Below, one piece after another: positions 24,160-49,100 of a stretch of 64,000 nt of DNA. The first letter of the stretch is position 1, and each line of letters starts with the position of its first letter. The stretch comes from Chelativorans sp. ZYF759 (GTDB lineage: Bacteria; Pseudomonadota; Alphaproteobacteria; Rhizobiales; Rhizobiaceae): positions 1 to 64,000 of the forward strand of contig NZ_WVVV01000010.1 of the NCBI RefSeq assembly GCF_012911015.1. The letters run 5' to 3'. A program made the position numbers and the translations under genes. The notes beneath the pieces are model-generated. The model did not search any database. It saw only the letters and a list, made by a program, of their open reading frames with translations, and was not told the origin of the DNA.

Positions 24160-24239
24160 GAGGCGTGTCTGGCACTTGGCGGCAGCCAGCGCAATAAACC
24201 AGGACACGGCTTCTTAACCGGCCTCCCCTAGGGTGACGT

Positions 24240-24275
24240 ATTGCAATGCAACAAAACTTGGTTAGTTTCGTTGCA
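24240..24275. promoter_or_regulatory. Putative PhaR operator and inverted repeat upstream of phaZ
   Basis: TTGCAATGCA (24241-24250) followed by ACAAAA lies 105-96 bases before the phaZ start. The same 10-mer, followed by CAAAA, lies 96-87 bases before the phasin start on the other strand. Here it also overlaps an inverted repeat, TGCAACAAAAC (24247-24257) and GTTTCGTTGCA (24265-24275), with one mismatch. PHB regulators PhaR/AniA of alphaproteobacteria bind TGC-spacer-GCA sequences. The match is by eye. Confidence 0.6.
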
Positions 24276-24345
24276 TAGCGATCTCCGCCCCGACCGGTCG
24301 GGTCATGCGCCACATGACCGGCCGAGGCTTCCGAGGGCAAACCGA

Positions 24346-25623
24346 ATGTATTATCATCTTTATGAACTGAATCACGCCGCCATGCAGCCCTTCCGGGCGT
24401 TTGCGGACACGATGCGGCTATACTATTCGAACCCGCTCAATCCGCTGACCCATACGGTTTTCGGTCGCTCCATGGCCGCAGGCGCGGAGCTCTTCGAGCG
24501 GACGACCAGACGCTATGGCAAGCCGGTCTTCGGGCTCGACGAGACCAAGGTCGATTTTCGGCCGGTTCCCGTGATCGAGCGGGTCATCTGGTCGAAGCCT
24601 TTCTGCGATCTCATCCATTTCGACCGCGCGGTCGACCCGCAGCGCAAGCCGGACCCGAAGATCCTGATGATCGCGCCGATGTCCGGGCACTATGCCACGC
24701 TGCTGCGCGGGACGGTGGAGACGCTTCTGCCGCATGCCGAGGTCTACATCACCGACTGGACGGACGCCCGCATGGTGCCCACGTCCGATGGTCGCTTCGA
24801 TCTCGACGACTTCGTCGACTACCTCATCGAAATGATCCATGCGATCGGTCCCGATACGCATGTGATGGCCGTCTGCCAGCCCTCGGTGCCGGCGCTCATG
24901 GCCGTATCGCTGATGGAAGCGCGCAAGGACAAGCTGGCGCCTGCCACAATGACGCTGATGGGGGGCCCGATCGACACGCGGCGCAACCCCACCGCCGTCA
25001 ACAAGCTGGCCGAGGAAAAGGGCATCGACTGGTTCCGCGACAACGTCATCATGCGGGTACCGTTTCCGGAGCCAGGCTTCATGCGCAGGGTTTACCCCGG
25101 CTTCCTGCAGCTTTCCGGCTTCATGGGCATGAACCTTGACCGGCACATCACGGCCCACAAGGATTTCTTCATGCACCTCGTGAAGAACGACGGCGATTCC
25201 GCAGAGAAGCACCGCGAGTTCTACGACGAGTATCTCGCCGTGATGGATCTGACCGCGGAATTCTACCTGCAGACCGTGGAAACCGTATTCGTCAATCACG
25301 CGCTGCCCAAGGGCGAGATGATACACCGCGGCGAACTGGTCGACCCTTTGGCGATCCGCAATGTCGCCTTGATGACCGTAGAGGGCGAGAACGACGACAT
25401 TTCCGGCGTCGGCCAAACCGAGGCCGCACACGATCTGTGCGTGAACATTCCCGACGACATGCGGGTCCACTACATGCAGCCCAAGGTTGGCCACTACGGC
25501 GTCTTCAACGGTTCGCGCTTCCGGTCCGAGATCGCGCCGCGAATTCTCGATTTCATCGCGACCCATCGCCATCTGCGTGCGGCAAAAGGCAAGCCGAAGG
25601 CTGCCGTGAAGGCAGCCGAATAG
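24346..25623 (+). CDS. phaZ: Intracellular polyhydroxyalkanoate depolymerase
   Basis: A 425-residue intracellular, granule-associated PHB depolymerase of the PhaZ1 type. It lacks a signal peptide and starts MYYHLYELNH, as in the family. The nucleophile is a cysteine, Cys177 in VMAVCQPSVPALMA, matching the unusual Cys box of Ralstonia PhaZa1. The C-terminal half carries MTVEGENDDISGVGQTEAAH and KVGHYGVFNGSRFR, with the expected Asp and His. It releases 3-hydroxybutyrate oligomers, which feed through acetoacetate to AacS (52565-54523). A shared upstream motif with the phasin gene suggests common control. Confidence 0.93.
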   Translation: MYYHLYELNHAAMQPFRAFADTMRLYYSNPLNPLTHTVFGRSMAAGAELFERTTRRYGKPVFGLDETKVDFRPVPVIERVIWSKPFCDLIHFDRAVDPQRKPDPKILMIAPMSGHYATLLRGTVETLLPHAEVYITDWTDARMVPTSDGRFDLDDFVDYLIEMIHAIGPDTHVMAVCQPSVPALMAVSLMEARKDKLAPATMTLMGGPIDTRRNPTAVNKLAEEKGIDWFRDNVIMRVPFPEPGFMRRVYPGFLQLSGFMGMNLDRHITAHKDFFMHLVKNDGDSAEKHREFYDEYLAVMDLTAEFYLQTVETVFVNHALPKGEMIHRGELVDPLAIRNVALMTVEGENDDISGVGQTEAAHDLCVNIPDDMRVHYMQPKVGHYGVFNGSRFRSEIAPRILDFIATHRHLRAAKGKPKAAVKAAE

Positions 25624-42258: not shown

Positions 42259-42549
42259 TCAGGGGCGCAGCCGCACGAAATCACCGTTCATGCTGCGCCG
42301 ATGGGCGATGTCGGCAAGGCTGGCGGTCGGGTCCTGTCCGACCGGCAGACGCCGAACCGCGGCAAGATCGGCACGCGTCAGTCCGATATCGGCAAGTTGG
42401 TGGTCGGAGAGCTCCGCCAGTTCGAGCGTCGCCCGGCGGTTCTCAAGAGCGCGCGCGATGCCGCGTACGAAGCCGGCCACACGCATGGCGATTGCGGTGA
42501 CGCGCGGGAGGGCGGCGGTCGCATGCTGGGTGGGCTCGAGGGCGGTCAT
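42259..42549 (-). CDS. DUF1127 protein
   Basis: A 96-residue basic protein with the DUF1127 core near the C-terminus: ENRRATLELAELSDHQLADI followed by GLTRADL. Short DUF1127 proteins of alphaproteobacteria include the RNA chaperone CcaF1 of Rhodobacter, whose gene is associated with anti-Shine-Dalgarno small RNAs. This one is longer at its N-terminus than the minimal form. The start is ATG 42549 behind AAAGGACAACCG. It is divergent from a LysR regulator gene, an arrangement I recall from other rhizobia, suggesting control by it. Confidence 0.9.
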   Translation of the reverse strand: MTALEPTQHATAALPRVTAIAMRVAGFVRGIARALENRRATLELAELSDHQLADIGLTRADLAAVRRLPVGQDPTASLADIAHRRSMNGDFVRLRP

Positions 42550-42728
42550 CGGTTGTCCTTTCAGGTCTTTGGCCGCACGGCAGGATCGGCCGCCGCGGAA
42601 GATGCGGGCGGTCGGAGCGAATAACGGTTGCGCCGTTGCGGAATGTCCGTCTTGTCTCACTCCGATATTGATTAGTCGAACGAATGTTTTTAATCTCTTC
42701 CATCAATCGCAATGATGAGAACGGACCC

Positions 42729-43727: not shown

Positions 43728-45287
43728 ATGAACAGTCCCCAGCCACAGACCGGTACCAATATCGGCGAATATTCCGTCTCCGAGATTTCCGGCGCGCTCA
43801 AGCGCATGGTCGAAGACACTTTCGGCCATGTGCGGGTGCGCGGCGAGATTTCGGGCTATCGTGGCCCGCACTCGTCCGGTCACGCCTATTTTGCGCTCAA
43901 GGACGAGCGCGCCCGCATCGAGGCGGTGATCTGGAAAGGCACGTTCTCGCGGCTGCGCTTCAAGCCCGAGGAGGGCATGGAGGTCATCGCCACCGGCAAA
44001 CTGACCACCTATCCGGGCTCCTCCAAATACCAGATCGTCATCGAGTCGATCGAACCGGCGGGCGCCGGGGCGCTGATGGCGCTGCTCGAGGAACGGCGCA
44101 AGAAGCTTGCCGCCGAAGGGCTGTTCGACGCCGGCCGCAAGCAGCTCATTCCCCACATGCCGAAGGTGGTTGGCGTCGTCACCTCGCCGACCGGGGCGGT
44201 CATCCGCGACATCATCCACCGCATCACCGACCGCTTCCCCCTGCATGTGATCGTGTGGCCCGTGCGCGTGCAGGGCGAGACGACGGGCGCCGAGGTTTCG
44301 GCGGCCGTGGCCGGCTTCAATGCGCTGCCCGAGGGCGGGCCGATCCCGCGGCCGGACGTCCTGATCGTGGCGCGCGGCGGCGGCAGCCTGGAGGATCTGT
44401 GGGGCTTCAACGACGAAGCGGTCGTGCGCGCGGTGGCGGATTCCGACATCCCGGTGATCTCGGCTGTCGGCCATGAGACCGACTGGACCTTGATCGATCA
44501 TGCCGCCGACATCCGCGCGCCGACGCCCACAGGCGCCGCCGAGATGGCGGTTCCCGTGCGCGCGGAGCTTGAGTCAACGCTGGCCAGCCTGGGCGCTAGG
44601 CTGAAAGGTTGCATCTCTCGCTCCAGCGAGCGCAAGCGCGAGCGGTTGAGGGCCTGCGCCCGTGCGCTGCCGTCCGCAGATCAGCTTCTGGCCATGCCAA
44701 GGCGTCGTTTCGACGAGGCCGCAAGTCGCCTCGACAGGGGTTTCTCGGTGCTGGTGGAACGCCGCAAGGCGAGGCTGCAGAAAGCACGCCTTTCGCCGGC
44801 GACGCTGCAGCAGCGCGTGGCGGAAGCTCGCCGCCGGTTGGAACGCGAGGCGGACCAGCTGCCGAAATGCGCTCGCGCCTTTCTGCGCAACCGCCGCAAT
44901 GATCTGGATCGCCGAGGAGCGCGGCTCAGGCTGGAGCCGATCGAGACGAGGTCACGAAATGCGCGCGAGCGGCTGGCGGGGCTTGCCGGGCGCAAGGACC
45001 GCGCCGTCGATGTCCGCGGAAGACACTGGCGCGAGCGGCTTTTTGCTGCGAGCCGGATGCTGGGCTCGCTTTCCTATACAAATGTTCTGGCGCGCGGCTA
45101 TGCGCTGGTGAGAGACGAGGCGGGACTGCCGGTCACGCGCGGGGACGCTGTGAAACCTGGCGACCGGTTGGCCATCCAGTTCGCGGATCGCTCGGTCGAC
45201 GCCCTGGCCGCCAAATCGAAACCGTCGTCGGGGACTGCTGCCAGGCCTCCATCGCCACCCCAGGGCGGACAGGGCACGCTGCTCTGA
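43728..45287 (+). CDS. xseA: Exodeoxyribonuclease VII large subunit
   Basis: A 519-residue nuclease subunit that degrades single-stranded DNA. The N-terminal OB domain begins [19 protein letters not shown] and continues with [20 protein letters not shown]. The catalytic region has [36 protein letters not shown] and [21 protein letters not shown] long helical, Arg-rich region follows, as normal. ATG 43689 directly after the LysR stop is an alternative start, but the extra 13 residues look unconserved. The small subunit gene xseB is not in the window. Confidence 0.95.
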
Positions 45288-45301
45288 ACTGCAGGCAAAG
45301 A

Positions 45302-45406
45302 AAAAGGCCGGGGGGAGGAGGTCCCGGCCTTTTCCTTGTCTCGACCGGCGGGAGGAGGTGCCGGTCTTTATCCCGCTCGCAGAGGGGAGGAGGTCTCTAC
45401 GAGCGG
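45302..45406 (-). ncRNA. Triple anti-Shine-Dalgarno stem-loop RNA (cuckoo/alpha-r14-like)
   Basis: Three consecutive stem-loops begin 20 bases after the phasin stop on the minus strand. Their loops all read ACCUCCUCCC. SL-a: 45373-45406, 12-bp stem (one G-U pair, CCGCUCGUAGAG/CUCUGCGAGCGG). SL-b: 45343-45366, 7-bp stem GACCGGC/GCCGGUC. SL-c: 45302-45333, 11-bp stem ending CCCGGCCUUUU and followed by a U-rich tail UCUUUG, so it also terminates. Differing stems with an invariant loop show that the loop is selected. CCUCCUCCC loops define the alphaproteobacterial 'cuckoo' RNAs, including CcsR RNAs of Rhodobacter and, as I recall, MmgR of Sinorhizobium. Release from the phasin mRNA by processing is inferred. 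A separate promoter was not located. Confidence 0.87.
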
Positions 45407-45426
45407 TATTCGATGTATCGAACGCC

Positions 45427-45882
45427 TCAGGCGGCCTTGAGTTCCTTCATGGACTTCTCGGCCAGCGAGCGCATCGGCTTGGAGACTTCCTCGAAAGACT
45501 TGGTCGACAGGGCCTGCAGCTCCTTGGCGTGCTCGACCGAAAGCTCCATCTGCTTGCGCATGAAGGCGGTCTGCAGCTCGAACATGTCGGCGATCGACTT
45601 CACGCCGAGCATGGCTTCCATGTGCGACAGGCTGGAGTCGGTGCCGGCGCGCATCGCGGCGATCGACTTGAGCGACATCTCGGTGCTGGAGGTGCGGGCG
45701 GCCTCGAAGGTCTCTTCGAGAGCCTTCTGGGTCGTCTCGGCGCCGTCCTTCATCTTGGCGTAGGCTTCCTTGGTCTGCTCCACGCCCTTTTCGGCCATGG
45801 CGCGCATCTGGTCGGTCGCCTGGCTGGCATCAAAGGTCGGGAATTCGATGGTTTCAGCGGTCTTGGAAGTGGTCTTCGACAT
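45427..45882 (-). CDS. Phasin family protein
   Basis: A 151-residue amphipathic, Ala/Glu/Lys-rich all-helical protein of the phasin_2 type that coats PHB granules. Typical segments are QATDQMRAMAEKGVEQTKEA, SLKSIAAMRAGTDSSL and ELQTAFMRKQMELSVEHAKE. It lacks a signal peptide. The start is ATG 45882. About 87-96 bases upstream is TTGCAATGCA, shared with the phaZ upstream region. Its transcript runs into the triple stem-loop RNA, which ends it. Confidence 0.94.
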   Translation of the reverse strand: MSKTTSKTAETIEFPTFDASQATDQMRAMAEKGVEQTKEAYAKMKDGAETTQKALEETFEAARTSSTEMSLKSIAAMRAGTDSSLSHMEAMLGVKSIADMFELQTAFMRKQMELSVEHAKELQALSTKSFEEVSKPMRSLAEKSMKELKAA

Positions 45883-45960
45883 GGTGTAAATCCTCTAGGC
45901 TTGTGCGGAGGGAGGGTCTACTCCGCTAATTCGCGATGATGATGAAACCAATATAGCGAA

Positions 45961-46001
45961 CATTTTGTGCATTGCAACATTTTTCCTCCCGCAGCGCACA
46001 A
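45961..46001. promoter_or_regulatory. Putative PhaR operator upstream of the phasin gene
   Basis: On the minus strand GTTGCAATGCACAAAATG lies at 45978-45961 (plus strand CATTTTGTGCATTGCAAC), containing the exact 10-mer TTGCAATGCA found before phaZ. Its TGCAATGCACAA part fits the TGC-n3-GCA pattern reported for rhizobial PhaR. A second element GCACAA at 45996-46001 faces TTGTGC at 45965-45970 as an inverted repeat. Confidence 0.62.
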
Positions 46002-46142
46002 GTTTTGGCGTCTCGGGAGTTAACCACGGCGCGGGAATGTGCCGCGAAGGCGGGCCGGGCGATGGACGGCTTCCGTCTGGCTCACTATTAATGATGTGTT
46101 AATTCTAGGGTATGGCGCGACACACCCTTCAGGGAAGGTGGC

Positions 46143-49100
46143 ATGGTTTCCGGCAACTATTCGTTTATCGACATCGCCGTCCTCGACCAGGTTCGCGCTC
46201 GCCTTGCCGCAGGCGACGCGCTTGCGCTGCTCGACATAGGGCTCGAGAGGCTGATCTGGGCGAACGGGCCGGGTTGCCAACTTTTCGGCTACCAGGATGT
46301 CGAGACCGTCATGGGGGCGCCGAGCGGCCTTTCGCCGGTGGCCCGGCGCCAGATTGCGGCTGCGCCAGGATATCCGCGCATGCGCGTCGAGACCTCAGTC
46401 ACCACGAGGCTCGCCGGCGCGCGCCCGGTCGGGCTTCTCGTCTGCGGCATCACGCTTCCCGACGGAGAACCGGCGGTGCTCGTGGCGCTGCCGGCCAGCC
46501 ATGGGGCGTCGCGCGCGCCGGCGGAGATCGCCGGCCAGGCGGTTTCCGGCTTCAGCGACGCCAATTCCTATGCGGCCCTCATCGACGAGGCGGGACATGT
46601 CGAGGCCGCCTCCGAGGGCTTCGCCGCCCTTGGCATCGCCCAGGAGACGCTGGATAGTCTTGTGCGAGAGGTGCGCGGGGAGGAGGACCGGTTGGTCAAG
46701 CGACTGATCCCCGCAGATGCCGCCACGCTGGCGGCCGGCATGGCGCGGCTCACCGACGAACCCGCGCGCCACCTGCTGCTGGTCGTCGAGGCCGAAGAAG
46801 TGCTCGCCGCGGAGGAAGCGGATGAGATGGCCGCGCAACCGCAACCGGCTGACGAGCAGGCAAGCATCGTCCGGCGCGACGATGTGGAGGATGATCCGGT
46901 TCCCGATGCCGAGCCGATTCTTACCTCGCTCGCATCCCCGCACGACGATCCGGGCGCGCAGGAGATCGGTTCGCAGACACAGGACGATGGCGCGACGGAG
47001 CCCGTCGCAATGCAGCCTGAGATCGACGCCGAGCCGGATATGCCCTCACCGTCGGCGGAGAATGCCGCCCAGCCATCGCCCGATGCCGCCGACGCGCAGT
47101 CTTCCAGCCCCGTGCCGGAGTTCCGTCACCGCGCCGTCCGCTTCGTCTGGCGCACGGATGCCGAGGGACGCTTCACGAGCGTATCGGACGAGTTTGCGGC
47201 CGCGATCGGCGTCGAGGCCGAGACCTTCAACGGCCGCACGTTCCGTGAAATCGCAACCCGTTTCGGGCTTGCCGGTGGGGACGACGTCGCCGAACTGCTC
47301 GAACGCCGTGACACCTGGTCGGGCCGTACCGTGATATGGCCTATCATTGGCCTCGAACTGGGCATCCCGGTCGATCTCGCGGCGCTGCCGATCTACGACC
47401 GCGCGCGCAATTTTGAAGGGTTCAGGGGCTTCGGCGTGGCGCGCATGGGCGACGCCTCGCCCTTCTCTCCGCGCGAAGAGCAGCCGGAACCGGCGGATGA
47501 GGCGGTCACGCCCGAGCAGGTAACCGAAGCGGAGGTCGACGACGATCCCTTTCTCGGCGAGACGCCGGCCATCTCGGTGGAACCGGGGCCGCAACGCCGC
47601 CACAGCGACAAGATCATCCAACTGGCCGAGCACCGGCCGGCAAACGGTGGTCGTCCGGCCGCCGATCCGGAGGCGGAACAGGAGCCGGATGCGCCGGGTG
47701 GTCTCAGTGCCAGCGAGCGCACTGCCTTTCGCCAGATCGGAGAGCGCCTGAAGCGCGATTCCGGGGCTGGTCCTGCCGACGACCTGCAACAAGAGGGCGG
47801 CGATGGTGTCGTGACGGGGCCGAACGGTCCCGATACGGAAACCGTCTCCGCAGCGTCCCTGGACGAGGCGCCGGTTGCCCCGGAGGATGCCGCGCCCGCT
47901 GGGATCGAGGATGACACCGACGCTGAGGCAAACGCGGTACCCACCCCGCTTGATGAGGATGCGCAGCTTCCGACCGCACCCCAGGACGCGAGTGAGACCG
48001 ACGCCGAAGAGGCGACGCCAGGTCCAGTCTCCGTGTCGAAGCTCGATGACCTCAAGGCCGTGCTGGCCAGCATCGATCGCGACTTCCGTCCCGCGGCCTA
48101 TCCCGGGACGGCCACGAGCGAAGTCCCGTCCTTGACCACGCTGCTGGGTGGGCTCCCGCTGCCCGTGATCGTTCACGCCGGCGATACGCTGCATTTCGCC
48201 AATCGAGAATTCTTCAAGCTGACGGGCTACGACACGCTCGACGACATCGCGGCGGCCGGCGGTCTCGACGGTCTTTTCGTGGAAGGGGTCGAGCCGTCCG
48301 CCGCCTCGCCAACCATGCGCCTGCGTCGTGCCGATGGTGGAGAGCTTGATGTGGGCGGGCATCTTCAATCCGTTTCCTGGGAGGGCGGCAGGGCACTGCT
48401 GCTTGCCCTGCGGCCGGCTGACGAGTCCGCGTCCGCGGCCGAGCCCGCCCCGTCTCGGGACCCGGAAGAAGTGGATGCCCGGCTCGAGGAACTCCGCGCC
48501 ATTGTCGACACCGCCACGGATGGCGTTGTCCTTCTTGATCGCGACGGCTTCATTCGCTCCATAAGCCGCCCGGCCGAAGCCTTGTTTGGCATGGACAGCC
48601 ATGAGGTCGAGGGCAAGTCCTTCGCCACCCTGTTTGCCATCGAGAGCCAGCGCGCGGCCGCCGACTATCTGGCCGGTCTGGCCGACAATGGTGTGGCCAG
48701 CGTGCTTAATGATGGGCGCGAGGTTATCGGGCGTGAGGCCCAGGGTCGCTTCATCCCGCTCTTCATGACCATGGGGCGGCTGCCGGCCGAGAGCGGCTAC
48801 TGCGCGGTGCTGCGCGACATCACCAACTGGAAGCGTGCCGAGGAGGATCTGACCCAGGCCCGCGCCCAGGCCGAGCGCGCCTCGTCCCAGAAGACGGAAT
48901 TCCTTGCGCGCGTCAGCCATGAGGTCCGGACCCCGCTCAACGCAATCATCGGGTTCTCCGAACTGATGCTGGACGAGAAATTCGGCCCGATCGGCAATGA
49001 GCGCTACCGCGACTATCTGCGCGACATCAACAGGTCGGGCAATCACGTGCTCGATCTGGTGAACGACCTGCTGGACATCTCCAAGATCGAGGCGGGCGAA

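Follow-up and report, generated by a model that had tools for sequence, protein, structure and literature searches.

What RNA, if any, is made from a row of hairpins with anti-Shine-Dalgarno (aSD) loops lying directly behind the gene of a phasin, a protein that coats carbon-storage granules, and which signal would govern it? The locus that raises this question lies in a 64,000-nt stretch of DNA from Chelativorans sp. ZYF759 (assembly GCF_012911015.1, contig NZ_WVVV01000010.1, positions 1-64,000), referred to here as the window. A preliminary description, made from the sequence, had noted the hairpins and proposed that they couple storage-granule gene expression to the repression of other mRNAs. 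Its observation is confirmed and its interpretation partly supported. From the sequence comparisons given below, we consider it probable that the locus is an αr14-type aSD RNA hosted in the phasin 3′UTR, which would be co-transcribed with the phasin gene, processed from its transcript, silence mRNAs and respond to PHB. The features of the array and its host gene are as follows.

45297-45412, minus strand: αr14 (cuckoo) RNA element, 116 nt, Rfam RF02344, in the putative phasin 3′UTR
45373-45406, minus strand: hairpin 1, stem of 12 bp, with the loop ACCUCCUCCC at 45385-45394
45343-45366, minus strand: hairpin 2, stem of 7 bp, with the loop ACCUCCUCCC at 45350-45359
45298-45337, minus strand: hairpin 3, stem of 15 bp, with the loop ACCUCCUCCC at 45313-45322; followed by a U tract (intrinsic terminator)
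45427-45882, minus strand: phasin gene, 151 aa, stop codon at 45427-45429; PF09361 at 4.4e-14, TIGR01985 at 115.2 bits (cut-off 99.7)

The hairpin array and its RNA family

The three minus-strand hairpins have stems of different sequence and the same 10-nt loop, exactly ACCUCCUCCC in each, as the preliminary description had stated and as the sequence, a motif count and the predicted fold confirm. The stem lengths given there, 12, 7 and 11 bp, hold for the first two; the third stem is 15 bp, the 11 bp being its inner part, to which four outer pairs (two A-U, one G-C and one G-U) are added. The range given there, 45302-45427, covers the array except for the last 4 nt of hairpin 3, and the reading of that hairpin as an intrinsic terminator is borne out by the U tract that follows it. 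The array starts 20 nt past the phasin stop codon, and the xseA gene, convergent on the third hairpin, ends at 45287, 10 nt from the terminator. The loop sequence is presumably a mimic of the 16S rRNA tail.

A chance origin of the array is ruled out by shuffles of copy number, fold energy and covariation. The motif ACCTCCTCCC occurs exactly three times in the 64 kb, each time on the minus strand within the element, at an expectation of 0.06, and three copies were reached in none of 100 shuffles. The minus strand of 45295-45430 folds at -65.2 kcal/mol, compared with -42.06 kcal/mol (sd 4.19) for shuffled sequences (z -5.52; as low in 0 of 200). The distinctive feature is the set of three copies in hairpins rather than the 9-mer CCTCCTCCC, which is not rare genome-wide, with 36 + 33 matches against 35 + 27 for the reversed control.

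Among relatives, the RNA structure is maintained by compensatory changes. The alignment used consists of 49 rows selected for at least three CCUCC hairpins, and the constancy of its loops is partly by construction. In these selected rows, the 30 base pairs of the window structure form in 92.3% of cells, both sides change at 22 of the 30 pairs (shuffled mean 15.9), and cells with changes on both sides number 222 against 71.3 after shuffling. The covariation score is 0.425, compared with 0.181 for shuffled and 0.042-0.122 for slid alignments, and none of 500 shuffles came as high on any of these three measures. When the structure was not supplied, RNAalifold predicted the same three hairpins on the 49-row alignment. 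Of the outcomes that the preliminary description had set against itself, a lack of loop conservation in close relatives has not come true, as orthologous phasin loci keep the loops and change the stems.

The RNA is of a known kind. The RF02344 (αr14) model matches the element end to end (model 1-123) at 68.7 bits, with a gathering score of 58.8 and an E value of 2.7e-10, and αr14 is the only small-RNA family in Rfam to exceed its cut-off in the 64-kb window. By this score the element is a member of αr14, the NfeR1 or "cuckoo" family, which bears out the cuckoo-type design proposed for the region. The element has three hairpins, CCUCCUCCC in each loop, and stems that differ in sequence; the layout published for αr14 agrees in all three respects (PMC10746234, PMC7143759, PMC3927594). 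The triplicate arrangement had been thought unusual, and this part of the preliminary description falls, as it is the normal layout of the family (PMC10746234, PMC7143759).

The family includes NfeR1 of Sinorhizobium meliloti (Smr14C2, SmelC397; RF02344), which shares with the element the three CCUCCUCCC-loop hairpins and variable stems, and whose loops redundantly silence ntrB and transporter mRNAs (PMC10746234). NfeR1 differs in having a sigma-70 promoter to itself, to which LsrB and NtrC bind (PMC10746234), whereas the window copy has no visible promoter. The earlier likening to CcsR and MmgR holds for the cuckoo kind in general, and membership of either is rejected. The CcsR1 model (RF02791) reaches 32.6 bits, short of its cut-off of 65.3, and none of the other families listed attains its own either. 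MmgR of S. meliloti resembles the element as a small RNA with an aSD loop linked to PHB (PMC7143759, PMC12542648), but it belongs to αr8, a family of another fold, is Hfq-dependent and, of its three stem-loops, has the aSD motif in the first (PMC7143759); the window RNA has three aSD loops. MmgR is repressed by AniA/PhaR and affects phasin synthesis (PMC7143759, PMC12542648); its presumed action is on the expression of phasin, whereas the window RNA is proposed to be made from the phasin transcript.

A close known arrangement is the ccaF1-CcsR1-4 locus of Rhodobacter sphaeroides, of the CIN1 type, in which cuckoo hairpins likewise lie behind a protein gene and share a terminator, and in which the co-transcribed RNAs are released from the 3′UTR by RNase E (PMC10253847). 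The window locus may, by analogy, work in the same way. It is not a CIN1 locus itself, as the host gene there encodes a DUF1127 protein and here a phasin (PF09361, TIGR01985); moreover, the Rhodobacter locus yields four RNAs and the CcsR1 model has two hairpins, whereas the window has one RNA of three hairpins. A DUF1127 protein (PF06568, 44 bits) is encoded at 42259-42660 on the minus strand, about 2.6 kb from the element, and no second αr14 match was found in the window.

Matches to αr14 at E ≤ 0.001 were found in 146 of 151 Rhizobiaceae genomes, 137 of them above the cut-off. The genome of strain ZYF759 has three copies above the cut-off, of which two lie elsewhere:

L001, same genome: αr14 copy separated by 2 nt from the 45-aa DUF1127 gene ahead of it; trmFO lies farther downstream
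L002, same genome: αr14 copy, intergenic

The first of these, DUF1127 followed by αr14, resembles the CIN1 locus of ccaF1-CcsR (PMC10253847).

Linkage to the phasin gene among relatives

The phasin is the one match of its kind in its genome at E ≤ 0.001, and a phasin match at E ≤ 1e-20 was present in 286 of 394 genomes. We compared 198 phasin loci, made up of the best 80 of 88 named loci, two further sets of 30 and 28, and 60 hand-picked from the matches listed. An aSD hairpin was defined as one with a stem of at least 6 bp and CCUCC in a loop no longer than 14 nt, folding below -9 kcal/mol and lying within 230 nt past the stop codon. By this count, which may miss some hairpins (L034 is among the loci whose first CCUCCUCCC stem fails the threshold), two loci have four hairpins, 53 have three, 28 have two, 12 have one and 103 have none.

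The distribution of these hairpins follows the phasin tree. The tree is a quick maximum-likelihood estimate from 183 distinct proteins (15 identical rows dropped) with SH-aLRT support only, and 65 of its 180 inner branches are open. In it, all 74 phasins with two or more hairpins fall inside a single Mesorhizobium/Aquibium-like clade of 101 rows (SH-aLRT 92), alongside 10 with one hairpin and 17 with none. Outside the clade, 81 of 82 phasins have no aSD hairpin, and the exception, L051, is a CCUCC in a terminator-like loop. Hairpin-bearing named loci include Mesorhizobium microcysteis, M. sediminum, M. denitrificans, Aquibium and Zhengella; those of Shinella, Sinorhizobium/Ensifer, Rhizobium, Agrobacterium and Hoeflea lie outside the clade. 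Nitratireductor and the nearest tree rows of the window phasin, L118 and L219, lie inside it without hairpins; with 17 of 101 clade rows in this state, the coupling seems dispensable in some lineages.

The label of two or more hairpins is clustered on the tree, with 14 changes compared with 57.5 in shuffles, and the starred branches of the quick tree alone force at least six changes of it. A single origin of the phasin-linked hairpins is likely rather than proven, given the weak forks and the quick tree. In a less selected view of 20 phasin loci, at least one exact CCUCCUCCC lies within 180 nt of the stop codon in 15, and αr14 exceeds the Rfam cut-off directly behind the phasin gene in 8; in another of the 20, L046, the αr14 match lies elsewhere, on the other strand. 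The family and its triple layout were already known. What appears to be new is the conserved hosting of αr14 in the phasin 3′UTR, that is, a phasin-αr14 pairing which, judged from these loci, is kept in much of one clade. Titles and the beginnings of abstracts, with subscription journals mostly uncovered, gave no description of a phasin-linked cuckoo RNA, and surveys of the cuckoo family may list one.

Other features were recorded behind the phasin genes. A tRNA gene follows in 19 of 20 relatives scanned (L034-L051, L053, L063), and it is tRNA-His in 7 of 8 loci examined by ARAGORN; none lies in the window at 45287-45297. In Mesorhizobium sp. ES1-1 (L039, 3460-3545), the first aSD loop is 98 nt past the stop codon, and a TATAAC-like box closes the additional stretch immediately ahead of the RNA, so that a promoter of its own is conceivable there. 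A similar first-loop spacing, 97-100 nt, is found in L152, L154, L156, L157 and L166.

Transcription and PhaR-type operators

Upstream of the phasin gene, the minus strand carries a predicted promoter and candidate operators, and a further candidate site lies elsewhere in the window.

45950-45977, minus strand: predicted sigma-70-like promoter of the phasin-αr14 transcript, TTGCAA-16-TATATT, 9 of 12 matches
45962-45982, minus strand: candidate operator of the PhaR/AniA type within the phasin promoter, 26.2 bits by a weight matrix from published PhaR sites (motif of PMC12542648)
45990-45998, minus strand: second, weaker PhaR-type core TGCGCTGCG (YGCRNYGCR), starting 116 nt upstream of the phasin start
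24236-24256: PhaR-type site, 18.9 bits, at the 5′ end of a PHB depolymerase frame (24241-25623, plus strand; TIGR01849, 664 bits)

Which promoter would serve the RNA? A consensus scan of 45250-46160, of a kind blind to some promoters, found no promoter-like site other than that of the phasin gene and thus none near the RNA. The Rfam match starts at the 15th nucleotide beyond the stop codon, and the 14 nt between leave no space for a separate promoter outside the coding region. Between the phasin stop codon and the RNA, no terminator-like site was found in a scan limited to loops of 3-8 nt, to which hairpin 3 is likewise invisible. As neither a promoter nor a terminator is seen in between, a processed phasin 3′UTR is the simplest reading and most likely the source of the RNA.

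A promoter within the phasin coding sequence would make αr14 a gene in its own right, for which the phasin would be a mere landing site; this is unlikely on this evidence. Arguments for it come from other members of the family: NfeR1 has its own promoter (PMC10746234), and 69 of 93 αr14 loci compared have neither a phasin nor, by pattern, a DUF1127 gene directly upstream (the pattern undercounts, since L026 and L028 apparently end in DUF1127 and were classed as other). In 47 of those 69, a PhaR-type core lies within 130 nt upstream, as if belonging to such a promoter. At the window copy, however, the 400 nt upstream contain no PhaR-type element (best score -5.7 bits), compared with median best scores of 20.9 and 18.3 bits in the two non-phasin αr14 classes. 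This copy stays below the PhaR threshold because its promoter, as predicted, lies 5′ of the phasin gene and outside the 400 nt. A landing site also fits poorly with a linkage kept across most of the clade, the first counted loop lying about 27-101 nt past the stop codon in loci with two or more hairpins.

The preferred reading, a transcript shared with the phasin gene, would place the RNA under the phasin operators. The PhaR motif, including double sites at phaP1 and phaP2, has been published (PMC12542648). Our weight matrix was built from 16 published sites in promoters efficiently bound by PhaR, leaving out the four exoH sites, which are also efficiently bound; the core TGCGCTGCG scores below 13 bits in it. 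The window phasin promoter has two YGCRNYGCR cores. Of the distinct 220-nt regions upstream of phasins, 93 of 100 inside the clade and 80 of 83 outside it contain at least two, compared with 0.3% of mononucleotide shuffles and 4 of 113 downstream stretches. Matrix matches are sparse in the background: the flanks of the phasin loci, 415,104 bases altogether, contain 5, or 0.005 per 400 nt. The 64-kb window has two strong matches, at the phasin promoter and at the front of the PHB depolymerase frame; that both are at PHB-related genes speaks for the matrix. A gene of the PhaR type is present in the genome (PF07879, 103.1 bits).

PhaR-type sites are also common at αr14 loci without a phasin. The 93 distinct loci compared form a non-random set (3 from this genome, the 30 best-scoring of the survey and 60 hand-picked among the matches listed, the last sometimes several per genome and many from related genera), in which 82 have a PhaR core within 400 nt upstream; dinucleotide shuffles lead one to expect 30.8, and of the downstream stretches 34 of 93 have one. 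Above the 99th percentile of shuffles (14.5 bits) are 68 of the 92 non-phasin loci (18 of 23 linked to DUF1127 and 50 of 69 others). The downstream control exceeds the same threshold in 17 of 93 stretches and is hence not clean; its matches possibly come from tandem αr14 copies or neighbouring promoters.

PhaR-type sites were examined near 27 αr14 loci of S. meliloti 4H41 and six other genomes. The former has five αr14 matches, one below the cut-off. At L336, AGATGCTGCACTGCAGCATTA, identical to the 21-mer of the rpoE8/acyP intergenic region, is centred 17 nt upstream of αr14. This 21-mer bound PhaR efficiently in EMSA (PMC12542648) and is also among the sites from which the matrix was built; the passages of the PhaR paper make no mention of an αr14 gene behind it. 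At L342, the published SMc02855/SMc02856 21-mer is centred 46 nt upstream of αr14; the site is marked NE in the published table, which we read as not examined (PMC12542648). No site of at least 13 bits was found at L323, L329 or the weak fifth match of this strain, L323 and L329 being, on our reading of their neighbours, the NfeR1 region; several αr14 copies in the other six genomes are also without one. MmgR is the only small RNA spoken of in the passages and term counts of the PhaR paper (PMC12542648), and in those of the NfeR1 paper, PhaR and PHB are absent and AniA is named once, in the reference list (PMC10746234). In the NfeR1 promoter, the activator LsrB binds a TGCA-N6-GCAT box (PMC10746234), and some of the conserved palindromes may therefore be sites of a different regulator. 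That PhaR controls cuckoo RNAs, the step of greatest consequence, is suggested by the motif statistics together with a single binding site from the literature.

Pairing with messengers and the link to carbon storage

In the proposed mechanism, a single transcript would run from the phasin promoter through the phasin gene to the third hairpin, as suggested by the lack of visible intervening sites. An endonuclease, probably RNase E as at ccaF1-CcsR1-4 in Rhodobacter, would then free the three-hairpin 3′ end. The ACCUCCUCCC loops would pair with the Shine-Dalgarno (SD) sequences of target mRNAs and block their translation, as NfeR1 does in S. meliloti; on that precedent, the targets may include genes for uptake and nitrogen. 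The PhaR-type operators of the phasin promoter lead one to expect more of the RNA as PHB accumulates, when the PHB-binding repressor PhaR would be drawn to the granules; this behaviour of PhaR is published for S. meliloti, and in this genome the operator sequences point to it. A cell starting to coat granules would thereby also turn down part of its translation.

Genome-wide searches singled out no target. The pattern GGGAGG-N4-12-ATG gave 447 sites against 64 for the reversed control, an excess probably due to strong SDs being common, and the 8-nt complement before a start, GGAGGAGG-N3-12-RTG, gave 102 against 59.

The SDs of the phasins themselves were also compared with the loops and with the 16S rRNA tail. 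Phasins with two or more hairpins mostly have SDs of the AAAGGA type, with a median match of 6 nt to the 16S tail and 4 nt to the loops. Counting distinct SD stretches, a match to the loops over at least 5 nt is found in 9 of 65 with at least two hairpins and in 2 of 10 with a single one, compared with 10 of 17 hairpin-less clade members and at least 44 of 54 outside the clade. The window phasin is an exception, as the GAGGA before its start gives a 5-nt match, and the window RNA might accordingly silence its own phasin mRNA. A test of correlated evolution between hairpins and SD match gave p = 0.0145 on the whole tree and 0.078 within the clade; it pools one-hairpin with hairpin-less loci, and a single clade-level change can mislead the whole-tree value. 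That hairpin-bearing phasins have SDs which avoid pairing with their own loops is suggestive only.

These SDs also bear on action in cis, in which the hairpins would end or stabilise the phasin mRNA, or the loops would pair with the phasin ribosome-binding site and limit synthesis. Hairpin 3 is a terminator and the window phasin has its GAGGA, both as this account would have it. It is nevertheless quite improbable, because plain terminator hairpins without an aSD loop stand behind those out-clade phasins whose folds were inspected, such as L053, L069 and L128, and, as weak evidence, because most hairpin-bearing phasins lack an SD match of 5 nt or more, as if self-pairing were avoided. We give very little weight to the idea that the loops are decoys, binding a protein or mRNAs without productive silencing or acting as a sponge for other RNAs. 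It could draw on the likeness of the loop to the 16S tail. It could also draw on CcaF1, an RNA-binding DUF1127 protein that influences the levels of the CcsRs in Rhodobacter (PMC10253847), but the same loops redundantly silence mRNAs in S. meliloti (PMC10746234).

Beyond the window, we advance a wider reading tentatively, as one that could well prove wrong: PhaR, the sensor of PHB, may have αr14 RNAs as a general output. Its operator would drive many separate or DUF1127-linked αr14 genes in Rhizobiaceae, and in the Mesorhizobium-type clade one copy would have come to sit in the 3′UTR of a main PhaR target, the phasin gene, whose mRNA would itself give rise to a repressor of translation. In this clade, the phasin SD would have drifted in most members to AAAGGA, read by the ribosome tail but poorly by the loops.

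Cuckoo RNAs are abundant in Rhizobiaceae, being present in 146 of the 151 genomes, and in the papers covered, signals and targets have been worked out for NfeR1 (nitrogen stress) and for the Rhodobacter CcsRs. Through the phasin-αr14 pairing, carbon storage may be wired to the switching off of other genes. If so, with a conserved copy on the phasin transcript and PhaR-type operators at most of the other copies examined, carbon storage would be a signal shared by these RNAs, and this would explain how the decision to store carbon reaches the translation of other genes.
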